A stretch of DNA of 31,679 nt from a virus: positions 1-31,679 of IMG/VR virus record IMGVR_UViG_3300043399_000128. One strand, 5' to 3'. Each line of letters starts with the position of its first letter. Within the stretch, counting starts at the first letter, position 1. The position numbers and the translations under genes are program-made. Shown piece after piece: positions 27,053 to 31,679 of this stretch. The notes under the pieces are model-generated. The model saw nothing but the letters and a program-made list of their open reading frames with translations. It made no database searches and was not told where the DNA came from.

Positions 27053-27538
27053 ATGGAAAATAAACTATTTGAATGGATGATCAATTTCGTAGAGCAACCC
27101 AATGAGTTGCTTGGTGGATGGTCTCCGTGTCCATTCGCTAGAAAAGCTAGATTGACCGACAAGATAAAAATCCAGTATTCTGAGGCAACTCGGCTACTGG
27201 ATTCAGTCTTTTCTAATCTGGATTTATTGGATCAATATGAAGTTGTTGTGATCTGGTTTGATCATACACAGATAACGCCACATGACTTGAGTCAACAAGT
27301 GAACCAAATGAACACTGAACTGTTGAAACAAAATTATGTTGTGTTAGAAGATCATCCAGACAATGTTGAAATAATCAATGGTGTTCGTATGAACTTTGGT
27401 CACGCTGGTTTGTTGGTTGTTCAAAAGTTGGACAAACTACAACAAGCTGCTGAGACGCTAAAGTCAAAGGGATACTATTCTTGTTGGAGCGAAGCTGAAC
27501 TTGATTCGGTTGTGACATGGCGAAATACTGCAGAATAA
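27053..27538 (+). CDS. Hypothetical protein (GGWxPCPFA motif)
   Basis: A protein of 161 aa. The N-terminal motif GGWSPCPFARKARL (residues 21-34) is distinctive: a Pro-Cys-Pro core in a helical context. The middle reads as alternating strands and helices (YEVVVIWFDHTQITPHDL, then VVLEDHPDNVEIINGVRMNF, then GLLVVQKLDKL). No clear ribosome site precedes the ATG; the mRNA leader would be the tail of the structured RNA. It overlaps the next gene by 22 bases and opens an operon with the transferase, the amidinotransferase and four oxygenases. The family is not recognised; a conserved Cys in PCPF could be functional. Confidence 0.7.
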   Translation: MENKLFEWMINFVEQPNELLGGWSPCPFARKARLTDKIKIQYSEATRLLDSVFSNLDLLDQYEVVVIWFDHTQITPHDLSQQVNQMNTELLKQNYVVLEDHPDNVEIINGVRMNFGHAGLLVVQKLDKLQQAAETLKSKGYYSCWSEAELDSVVTWRNTAE

Positions 27539-27945
27539 ATTTAAGTGCCACTAATTATCAAGAATCTCTACACTGTAAGATTCTAAATACATCACACTTG
27601 ACAGCAATACGCGAGATCTACTCTAAATACTGTGCATACAAAAAGTTTGATAGTGTTGTTCCTGTTTTTGATTGGCAGTACACTGCTTCAAACGTAGAGT
27701 TGCTTGGTTACTATATCGATGATCGGTTAGTGGCATACAGTCATATCATATTGCTTGATGGTAAAAACTGCGAGTGTTCGCAGTTTGCATGGGATTATGC
27801 AGACCCTTCGCTTGAACTTGGTATTCGCAGTTTACAACATGAGTGTGCTTATTACAAACAACGTGGGTATCAGTATTACTACCTTGGACAGTACGCTAAG
27901 TATAAGCAACAGTTAGATGGTTTTGAAATTTTAGGTGCGCTTTGA
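27517..27945 (+). CDS. ATE/Bpt-like (GNAT-fold) aminoacyl transferase-related protein
   Basis: A protein of 142 aa. The C-terminal part, with FAWDYADPSLELGIRSLQH at 88-106, then YYKQRGYQYYYLGQY (111-125) and AKYKQQLDGFEILG, follows the pattern of the C-terminal domain of arginyl/leucyl-tRNA-protein transferases (SLG ... G-x-x-Y-x-YLGY ... YK). Those enzymes move an amino acid from aminoacyl-tRNA to a protein N-terminus. The N-terminal Cys cluster of true ATE enzymes is missing, so it may be a plain acetyl- or aminoacyl-transferase with another acceptor. It overlaps both neighbours and is coupled to the amidinotransferase through a TTGA overlap. Confidence 0.6.
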   Translation: MAKYCRINLSATNYQESLHCKILNTSHLTAIREIYSKYCAYKKFDSVVPVFDWQYTASNVELLGYYIDDRLVAYSHIILLDGKNCECSQFAWDYADPSLELGIRSLQHECAYYKQRGYQYYYLGQYAKYKQQLDGFEILGAL

Positions 27946-29060
27946 CATATTCTGTAAATCAACATTGGGATCCACTAAAAGTTTGTTGGGTTGGTAAATC
28001 ATACTCACCAGAGTTTTATTCGTTTATAAAAAATAGTAAAGTTCGTTCTGTTATGGAGCGGATCGCAGCAGAGACTGAAGAAGACTACCAACAGTTGGTA
28101 AATCTTCTCCAGTCTTTTGGCGTTTTAGTGCACAGACCAAACTTGTCTGATAACTATCTTGATTATATGGTTGATGGTAGAATACTGCCACCGCCAATGT
28201 GTCCAAGAGACTGGACAATCATGATTGGTGATAAGTTTTACTACAAAGCGCACATAACAAATTCTGCTGCCGATGGGTTTGATCCTGCACTGACATCACC
28301 AATTGATGTCATATGGTCTGATGCTCTTAGAGATATCGGCAAACAAAATCCTGTTATCAATAGCATCGCCACTATTGGCTCTCATAAAGATGCAGACTTG
28401 TTTAGATGGTTAAACTCTGCTACAACTACCAGAATTGGTAGAGACTTGTACTTTGGTACCAATGTAGGTTGGTGGAACAAAGGCAAGGTATTTGATAGAT
28501 TCCGCGACCAAGGTCTTGAGAGAATCAAGAGACAATACCAAGAACAATTTCCCGAATATAGATGTCATGTTATTGACACTGAAGGACATGCTGATGGCAC
28601 TTACTGTCCAGTAGTTCCAGGTCTTATTGTCAGTCTTTGTGATGCGCCAATTTATGCAGACACATTTCCTGACTGGCAAGTTGTTCACTTAAAACAAAAT
28701 AGCTGGGAAGCTGTTCGTCCATTCTTAGAACTTAAGCAAAAGAATCGTGGCAAGTGGTGGGTTCCAGGTGAAGAATTAAATGATGAATTTACTGATTTTG
28801 TTGAGGGGTGGTTGTCACACTGGGTTGGATATGTAGAAGAAACTGTGTTCGACGTTAACATGCTAGTGATTGACCAAAAGAATGTTGCTTGTTCTGGTTA
28901 CAACAAACAAGTGTTTGATAAGTTTAGTGAGTTTGGTATCACACCACATGTGATAAATTTTAGACACCGTTACTTTTGGGATGGTGGTTTGCACTGCGTC
29001 ACTAGCGATATAAGTAGAACAGGTGAACTTAAAGATTATTTTCCAGAAAGAAAAATATGA
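27942..29060 (+). CDS. Amidinotransferase of the GATM type
   Basis: A protein of 372 aa with a TTG start in a TTGA overlap. The beta/alpha propeller signature of the guanidino-group enzymes is visible: RDWTIMIGD (89-97), D168 in GRDLYFGTN, H216-x-D218 in TEGHADGTYCPV, and the nucleophile C352 in DGGLHCVTSDI. Together these form the Cys-His-Asp catalytic set. Family members transfer an amidino group from arginine to an amine (as in creatine or streptomycin synthesis) or hydrolyse guanidino compounds. The length suits an amidinotransferase rather than a deiminase. Downstream oxygenases overlap it, suggesting stepwise modification of one product. Substrates are unknown. Confidence 0.82.
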   Translation: MTYSVNQHWDPLKVCWVGKSYSPEFYSFIKNSKVRSVMERIAAETEEDYQQLVNLLQSFGVLVHRPNLSDNYLDYMVDGRILPPPMCPRDWTIMIGDKFYYKAHITNSAADGFDPALTSPIDVIWSDALRDIGKQNPVINSIATIGSHKDADLFRWLNSATTTRIGRDLYFGTNVGWWNKGKVFDRFRDQGLERIKRQYQEQFPEYRCHVIDTEGHADGTYCPVVPGLIVSLCDAPIYADTFPDWQVVHLKQNSWEAVRPFLELKQKNRGKWWVPGEELNDEFTDFVEGWLSHWVGYVEETVFDVNMLVIDQKNVACSGYNKQVFDKFSEFGITPHVINFRHRYFWDGGLHCVTSDISRTGELKDYFPERKI

Positions 29061-30516: not shown

Positions 30517-31169
30517 TGAGTGCATTTGAGATAGTGTTTGATAGTAAGTCGGTGTTTGTTCCTGAAATACGAATACCGATGTTCAGTAAGGATTTAACAT
30601 TTCCAGCTTATACTCTGGCTGATGTAGTATTCGCAGAAGAAAAGAATATACTGTCAAAGAAAACATCATCGCAAGAGGATGAAAACTGGTTGACATCTAG
30701 ATTGTGGTACTATAACTTTCTAGACTTTGAATACAAAGCTGTGGCAGAGTTACGAAACTTTATAAAACAAAGTTACATTGAGTATATGAATATTCTTGGA
30801 CACGATGTTGGGGTCACTTATATTCAATGTTGGGCTAATATTCTTAGAAACGATGGAAGACCAATAGTTCCGCATCATCATGCCGATGGACATGCAAAGA
30901 GTTGTCCAGACCAAAGGTACTCTCATCTGTCAGGTAATATCTGTGTTGAAACTGCTCACACAAGCACTTATTTTAGAAATCCATTCTTAGATAAAGATTG
31001 TATCGGTATTAAAAACCGAAATGGTGAAATGATTTTCTTTCCATCTTATGTTGTGCACTGGACAGATCCGAATCCAATAGACCAACCAAGAGTTACTGTA
31101 TCATTTGACATTATAACTGAAGAATTTTATAATATTATTGATGGATCTAATTATAGAAGGTTGACATGA
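30516..31169 (+). CDS. 2OG-Fe(II) oxygenase-like protein
   Basis: A protein of 217 aa. It has QCWANILRNDGRPIVPHHHAD (102-123), with H120-H121-H122 and D124 near the first iron site, the strand HLSGNICVE, and the distal H181 in FFPSYVVHWTDPN with R192 in QPRVTVSFDI. This matches the same putative oxygenase group as the preceding protein. A 15-residue loop after the first site carries a Cys (KSCPDQRY). It is coupled on both sides (TAATG and ATGA), as the third oxygenase in a row. Confidence 0.82.
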   Translation: MSAFEIVFDSKSVFVPEIRIPMFSKDLTFPAYTLADVVFAEEKNILSKKTSSQEDENWLTSRLWYYNFLDFEYKAVAELRNFIKQSYIEYMNILGHDVGVTYIQCWANILRNDGRPIVPHHHADGHAKSCPDQRYSHLSGNICVETAHTSTYFRNPFLDKDCIGIKNRNGEMIFFPSYVVHWTDPNPIDQPRVTVSFDIITEEFYNIIDGSNYRRLT

Positions 31170-31679
31170 TTAAAATTATTGATAATGTTATTACTCCAAC
31201 ATACGCAAACGTGCTAATGAATGATGCCAGACACATTCTACAGTACTGTTATAAAGACAAAACAAGCGAACAAAATAGCTTTTATGCTGGATCAATCTTT
31301 ACTGATGAGAATACGCATGATTATGGTCAATTGTCTTGCCCAATAGTTATTGCTCATGAAGCTGCGCCACAATTACAATTTGCTTGGTATTTTGACTTGC
31401 TTAGAGCTTTGATGTATAATGTACAAGACATCGTTCCAGAAATAAATCCAAATTATGTCACTAGGATAAAACACAATATCTTGTTACAACAAGAGAATGC
31501 TCCAGAATTGCATTATAATATACCACATCAAGATGCTGAACGTGGTTGTTACTCAATGATTTATTACCTAGACGATTCAGATGGTGATACATTTTTATTC
31601 AATGAGTACTATAATAAAGATTCGCTACCAGATAAACTAACAGTTGCTCATAGAGTATCACCTAAAAAGAATCGTGTTG
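31166..31679 (+). CDS. 2OG-Fe(II) oxygenase (partial, fourth in operon)
   Basis: The ATG at 31166 overlaps the previous stop (ATGA), and the frame stays open to the window edge, giving 171 residues. The start MIKIIDNVITPTYANVLMND is the usual N-terminal strand-helix of phage oxygenases, and LHYNIPHQDAERGCYSMIYY contains the first iron pair H121-x-D123, followed by LDDSDGDTFLF. The distal His lies beyond the edge. It resembles the protein at 23432 (LDSDGDTIIID), so the two may be paralogs. Confidence 0.8.
   Translation, partial: MIKIIDNVITPTYANVLMNDARHILQYCYKDKTSEQNSFYAGSIFTDENTHDYGQLSCPIVIAHEAAPQLQFAWYFDLLRALMYNVQDIVPEINPNYVTRIKHNILLQQENAPELHYNIPHQDAERGCYSMIYYLDDSDGDTFLFNEYYNKDSLPDKLTVAHRVSPKKNRV

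Follow-up and report, generated by a model that had tools for sequence, protein, structure and literature searches.

Viral PCPF-ATE-AMT Gene Clusters as Possible Guanidino-Tailoring Operons

AglA is a heme enzyme in which Cys44 is the essential heme ligand, and its family hydroxylates a guanidine nitrogen (PMC12866846). Another study describes the DUF6875 proteins as heme-binding tryptophan oxidases ("P422") (PMC13307353), and characterized amidinotransferases, such as AoaA, conserve the aspartate D254 (AGAT numbering) (PMC3684758). Here we analyzed a viral locus whose products resemble these enzymes. It belongs to a large aquatic phage and lies in IMGVR_UViG_3300043399_000128, a virus record of 31,679 bases that in its entirety constitutes the window, and consists of seven tandem open reading frames (ORFs) at 27053-31679, encoding PCPF, ATE, AMT, and four 2-oxoglutarate (2OG) oxygenase-like proteins, OxA to OxD. 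All share one strand, and every ORF overlaps or abuts its successor. The initial annotation had placed the seven ORFs at these positions and had noted that the operon reaches the window edge; both points were confirmed, the record ending inside OxD.

That annotation read the locus as a possible biosynthetic operon with an amidinotransferase and oxygenases as its core. Our results support a biosynthetic or modification operon whose genes stay together in relatives, but not that core, since only close relatives have the oxygenases. The conserved unit is instead PCPF-ATE-AMT together with a small DUF6614 gene. Both this fourth member and the likeness of PCPF to a heme arginine hydroxylase, the strongest link to guanidine chemistry, had been missed. 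We propose, at slightly less than an even chance, that this viral operon serves tailoring, building and oxidizing an arginine-derived guanidino group; a chemical decoration derived from arginine, not yet described, is probably made by phages. Searches of open-access papers returned no account of such a viral operon, nor of phage-encoded heme enzymes of the AglA type.

The conserved unit and its distribution in viruses

Linkage was counted over 183 contigs that remained after removal of redundancy. PCPF and ATE lie within 1.5 kb of each other in 121 nonredundant viral loci, with ORFs that overlap or abut in 102, and AMT accompanies them in 67, so that the trio is shared by dozens of uncultured phages. 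The genes occur in about 40 order patterns, including PCPF-ATE-AMT, PCPF-AMT-ATE, and arrangements with an inverted ATE, and at least 11 of the loci harboring all three have no other neighbor family in common. On the AMT tree, adjacency to PCPF/ATE switches 21 times, compared with 37 expected under shuffled labels. Taken together with the shared-neighbor counts, this indicates that the association has been partly inherited and repeatedly broken and re-formed. A chance arrangement can be excluded because homologs keep the same order in independent contigs, such as L018 (PCPF-ATE-AMT-OxA-OxB-oxygenase-OxD).

Contigs larger than 100 kb that carry PCPF-ATE with no adjacent AMT harbor AMT elsewhere in seven of eight cases. 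The DUF6614 gene (PF20319) is present in 90 loci, without exception on the same strand as the anchor gene and within 300 bp in 87. Its product (about 110 amino acids [aa]; e.g., L139:1430-1759) is highly conserved and consistently accompanies PCPF-ATE in viruses. It is absent from the window, and a literature search on DUF6614 gave no paper.

These counts bear on the alternative that the locus is a hypervariable island gathering unrelated metabolic genes with no common pathway. Confinement of the oxygenases to one lineage would fit this, as would the T4-like cyanophages, e.g., S-PM2, which harbor distant PCPF relatives (30-35%) just upstream of the baseplate genes gp25 and gp6 and have neither ATE nor AMT. 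The overlap of PCPF, ATE, and AMT that recurs in many orders, along with their co-occurrence over whole contigs, argues against it, and we regard this as the least probable of the explanations weighed here.

Scans of viral contigs detected at least 542 stretches encoding PCPF, at least 512 encoding members of the AMT family (by profile), and 83 ATE matches; the core occurs in aquatic phage contigs as large as 374 kb. Among about 85,000 cellular species genomes, AMT had just seven matches, two of them on PCPF-bearing contigs resembling misbinned phage in metagenome-assembled genomes; a cellular origin was rejected on these counts, and the AMT clade is essentially virus restricted. A wider cellular spread of PCPF was likewise rejected, as 299 Pseudomonadota yielded just one weak DUF6875-like match and a lone copy was seen in one Bdellovibrionia genome. 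This copy, chromosomal (L267/L281), adjoins an Mrp-type ATPase, and the same genome carries an AMT relative (L100) on a separate contig. ATE matches in Bdellovibrionota appear to be ordinary arginyltransferases.

Among sequenced phages, AMT is found in three single-cell marine virus contigs and in Synechococcus phage S-SCSM2R, where KdsB/KdsA precede it and two annotated 2OG oxygenases come after. Close DNA relatives of the window among these phages were sought, with short matches (66-83%) only. In tblastn searches of 50,697 phage records, neither DUF6614 nor ATE, the latter with a diverged viral homolog from L203 as the query, had a match. With the core common in aquatic phage contigs and ATE and DUF6614 unmatched in sequenced phages, this would be a common viral chemistry that is invisible in the laboratory.

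PCPF, ATE, and AMT and their relatives

AlphaFold2 models were made for PCPF and ATE, and AMT was assessed from profile alignments. The PCPF model, built with 89 viral sequences, had a predicted local distance difference test (pLDDT) score of 96.3. VIA-align ranked the three structures of AglA with arginine highest (Z 7.8, 7.5, and 7.4; 141 to 144 residues; root mean square deviation, 3.6 to 3.9), followed by unrelated structures at Z 4.5. Foldseek with the same model returned nothing significant, and comparison of the sequence with solved structures gave no credible match. Taken alone, Z values below 8 would leave a shared AglA sandwich fold unconvincing, but the best DALI match of AglA itself to other structures is at most 5.4 (PMC12866846), the whole domain is covered, and the sequence agrees.

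Cys26, within the motif PCPFARKA, is invariant in all 89 viral sequences. By hhalign, this residue aligns with the cysteine of the PC motif in YqcI/YcgG (E 0.06) and of the CPFA motif in DUF6875 (E 2.2e-7). In a multiple alignment, C-x-x-A-x-x-A is kept in all three groups, with DHP of PCPF (residues 100-102) opposite LHP of YqcI/YcgG. The PF08892 (YqcI/YcgG) profile had no match to PCPF at E<=1, and the Pfam match to DUF6875 was under threshold (16.1 versus 24.5 bits) and spanned residues 4-51 only. We infer from these alignments that Cys26 is the counterpart of AglA Cys44 itself, and PCPF is predicted to bind heme through it. On the strength of alignment and model, PCPF, which had been annotated as an unknown protein, is best called a viral relative of the AglA/YqcI-YcgG and DUF6875 heme enzymes and a member of neither family.

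PCPF is nearer in sequence to DUF6875 than to YqcI/YcgG, which raises the possibility that it is a DUF6875-type tryptophan oxidase ("P422"), as that family is described (PMC13307353), and that the pathway is one of indole or tryptophan chemistry rather than of arginine. However, the match is limited to the N-terminal 43 to 50 residues, the substrate half differs, and the partner proteins, ATE and AMT, suggest arginine. We consider this very unlikely.

ATE had been called an ATE/GNAT-like transferase, and this was borne out by the Pfam ATE_C domain (29.0 bits; cut-off, 25), GNAT-type model matches, and a Foldseek match to human ATE1 (E 1.7e-5). The model (pLDDT 96.3) resembles MprF (Z 15.2), FemX (Z 14.9), and the aminoacyl-tRNA-dependent peptide synthases Sba18/Sbb17 (Z 13.8), and it also matches acetyl- and myristoyltransferases. 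ATE scores beneath every NCBIfam arginyltransferase cut-off (18.5 versus 170 bits for the full-length equivalog). Arginyltransferases have two domains and ATE a single one, so its donor may or may not be arginine. In L239-L255, ATE-like proteins of greater length (about 250 aa) occur without PCPF, paired with a 212-aa uncharacterized protein encoded directly upstream.

The resemblance of ATE to tRNA-dependent transferases suggests another explanation, in which ATE adds an amino acid to a phage or host protein or peptide with phage tRNAs as donors, PCPF and the oxygenases oxidize the added residue or neighboring side chains, and the AMT-like protein is a peptidyl-arginine enzyme. The 30 tRNA genes of the window are consistent with this, as is the location of PCPF near baseplate genes: in 46 loci a T4-type one lies about 1 kb upstream of PCPF, and in cyanophages PCPF is just upstream of gp25/gp6. 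Against it, no conserved small gene for a precursor or an acceptor turned up next to the operon (the 571-nucleotide [nt] upstream gap contains no ORF longer than 53 aa), and AMT is also found in carbamoyltransferase/aminotransferase islands. To our knowledge, known members of the AMT fold act on small molecules. We consider modification of a protein or peptide an unlikely explanation, although not a negligible one.

The AMT family profile (hmmsearch) matched StrB1 first (1bwd; E 1.3e-35) and then AGAT (E 7e-32), HsvA, and SxtG. Cys352, His216, Asp218, and Asp90 correspond to C407, H303, D305, and D170 of AGAT. The initial annotation regarded absence of catalytic residues in homologs and scattering of the genes in relatives as signs against its reading. 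Neither was borne out: in 109 sequences, Cys352 is conserved in 107 and His216 in 109, and the genes are clustered. Asp90 is conserved in 104 and Asp218 in 108. The claim of an amidinotransferase with intact Cys/His/Asp thus stands for the StrB1/AGAT fold and these four residues and fails for the triad Asp, whose position is occupied by Asn158. Covalent Cys chemistry looks possible from the alignment; classical amidino transfer is unproven. Two AMT paralogs (L017:11998-13287 and L069:4460-5548) have Gly in place of the catalytic Cys and are possible pseudo-enzymes.

The loss of the triad Asp, unusual for transferases, and a fold that also includes deiminases raise the possibility that, during infection, AMT acts as a hydrolase or deiminase and breaks down arginine or a guanidino compound of the host, for nutrient diversion or counter-defense, with its neighbors acting separately. 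Models of dimethylargininase and arginine dihydrolase do give weak scores for short AMT paralogs. The closest solved relatives, however, are amidinotransferases, AMT is tightly linked to the AglA-like and ATE-like genes, and the PADLOC defense models gave no match except a weak generic 2OG one. We judge this quite unlikely.

Oxygenases and genomic context

The initial annotation counted four 2OG oxygenases; the series OxA-OxD is supported, and two more 2OG-like genes lie upstream (Table 1). The translations contain H-x-D/H ... H ... R motifs, with OxC exceeding the PF13759 cut-off and OxB barely below it. OxD is cut off before the distal His, and intact homologs of 195 to 221 aa are found in L018 and L021. 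Relatives of OxA match at 507 to 524 bits in L018, L022, and L098. The number of 2OG oxygenases per locus is six in the window, nine in L018, six each in L020, L021, and L098, four in L022, and zero or one in other loci. The oxygenases are a lineage-specific extension of the window's own lineage.

Table 1. Features of the window IMGVR_UViG_3300043399_000128
Feature	Coordinates	Strand	Description
PCPF	27053..27538	+	161 aa; AglA/YqcI-YcgG-DUF6875-like, predicted Cys-ligated heme oxygenase; phrog_10325
ATE	27517..27945	+	142 aa, single GNAT domain, ATE/FemX/MprF aminoacyl-tRNA-transferase type
AMT	27942..29060	+	Amidinotransferase-like, StrB1/AGAT fold, TTG start within the ATE stop (TTGA overlap)
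OxA	29057..29794	+	2OG/Fe(II) oxygenase-like, H-R-D ... H ... R; phrog_274 E 4e-6; FlmC-type E 4e-5
OxB	29791..30516	+	2OG-FeII_Oxy_5-type, H-x-H variant; PF13759 26.7 bits (cut-off 27); phrog_81 E 5e-17
OxC	30516..31169	+	2OG-FeII_Oxy_5; PF13759 36.7 bits (cut-off 27); phrog_81 E 3e-22
OxD	31166..31678	+	2OG oxygenase open at record end; phrog_274 E 1.6e-14
Upstream 2OG oxygenase	23432..24004	+	PF13640 22.8 bits (below cut-off 27); phrog_274 E 6.7e-31; operon membership uncertain
Upstream 2OG-like protein	22521..23336	+	HMD motif; relative of L018:6513-7118; operon membership uncertain
tRNA array	17434..23417		30 tRNA genes (ARAGORN), nearly all amino acids covered
Extra tRNA candidates	19634..19698, 22164..22235		Rfam
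RNase H-like protein	24012..24497		PF04308; flanked by the upstream oxygenase and DUF7788 genes
DUF7788/DUF2828 protein	25018..26481		phrog_850, RNA-binding protein; directly after the tRNA array

The L018 relative of the upstream 2OG-like protein abuts PCPF in that contig. Genes for a protein similar to the RNase H-like one also precede the operon in L018 (4520-4993) and L021 (228-764). The 571 nt without a clear gene follow the DUF7788/DUF2828 gene and precede the operon. Rfam detected only tRNAs in the operon surroundings and no RNA family in this gap, and promoter and terminator scans gave no excess worth quoting.

Several large phages have islands in which AMT paralogs are accompanied by a NodU-type carbamoyltransferase, a DegT/StrS aminotransferase, and radical SAM/SPASM enzymes. 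Of the 12 contigs carrying a NodU-type carbamoyltransferase, 6 have AMT at a distance of up to about 4 kb from it, and in 5 of those 6 a DegT aminotransferase lies within about 6 kb. L319:1079-2263, on the L210 contig, encodes a fusion of a PCPF domain with an S-adenosylmethionine (SAM)-dependent methyltransferase and is followed by SAM synthetase, carbamoyltransferase, and AMT, and in L021, a close relative of the window, a carbamoyltransferase and a methyltransferase lie among the oxygenases. The islands of L318, L320, and L323 carry several radical SAM/SPASM enzymes along with carbamoyltransferase, DegT aminotransferase, and AMT copies and also encode conserved uncharacterized proteins of about 600, 371, and 385 aa. 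Because these gene sets resemble those of amino-sugar/guanidino-antibiotic tailoring, a decorated glycan or small molecule is favored; a protein target stays open because of the aminoacyl-tRNA-type ATE and the baseplate location.

A proposed pathway and its relation to known systems

Our reading of the pathway as one of arginine is based on the PCPF-ATE-AMT linkage, the likeness of PCPF to AglA, the tRNA-transferase-like ATE, the StrB1/AGAT-like AMT, and the island contexts. Given the genes, folds, active-site residues, and linkage described above, homology suggests the following substrates, steps, and target. PCPF would bind heme via Cys26 and hydroxylate a guanidine or related amino acid side chain; ATE would take the aminoacyl residue (plausibly Arg) of a charged tRNA and pass it to an acceptor; AMT would form a covalent intermediate at Cys352 with a guanidino donor and move the amidino group; and the 2OG oxygenases would hydroxylate the product. 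In related phage islands, carbamoyl and methyl groups might be added. The decorated acceptor would most likely be a phage-made glycan or a peptide or protein, perhaps a surface glycan or peptide. A more specific version, in which a new, minimal branch of Cys-ligated heme oxygenases together with an altered amidinotransferase and an aminoacyl-tRNA transferase of one domain would yield an N-hydroxylated guanidino decoration with no cellular counterpart, is somewhat doubtful.

Several points weigh against the arginine pathway. The position of AGAT D254 is Asn in 68 of the 109 AMT sequences, Asp in 9, and otherwise variable, and with the triad Asp replaced, classical amidino transfer may not occur. 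A Z score below 8, as between PCPF and AglA, can reflect a common arrangement, and their sequence similarity is weak (hhalign to YqcI/YcgG, E 0.06). DUF6875, closer to PCPF in sequence, has a known chemistry on tryptophan (PMC13307353). ATE lacks the ATE N-terminal domain, no glycan gene was seen within the window, and the contigs share lineage, so that the loci are not fully independent.

If the proposal is correct, four unannotated viral families gain testable functions, the AglA heme class gains a very small relative, and phage tRNAs, arginine, and oxygenases are joined in one pathway. The enzyme superfamilies are known; their combination and the viral AglA-like branch are new as far as the searched literature shows.

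Compared with the AglA/YqcI-YcgG enzymes of the argolaphos, miharamycin, ambocidin, and guanitoxin pathways, the PCPF model appears alike over 143 of its 161 residues (Z 7.8), with a four-stranded sheet and flanking helices; PCPF also shares the Cys in PCxxAxxA and a following HP motif. Those enzymes are about 240 aa long, whereas the C-terminal part of PCPF is much shorter and its heme is predicted. With DUF6875 (PF21780), PCPF shares the N-terminal helix and CPFA motif and differs in the C-terminal half. ATE has the GNAT fold of arginyl-tRNA-protein transferase, FemX, MprF, and the streptothricin aminoacyl-tRNA peptide synthases, but consists of one 142-aa domain with no second GNAT and no N-terminal domain. 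AMT shares the fold, nucleophilic Cys, His, and guanidine-site Asp residues of StrB1 (inosamine-phosphate amidinotransferase), AGAT, HsvA, and SxtG, whereas about 90% of the viral family has Asn or some other residue in place of the triad Asp.

Streptothricin/streptomycin-type pathways use an enzyme set like that of the related phage islands. By analogy, the islands may be likened to these pathways in their amidinotransferase, aminotransferase, carbamoyltransferase, methyltransferase, aminoacyl-tRNA-type ligase, and oxygenases; the phage system differs in being viral, in its small core of three to four genes, and in having no known product.

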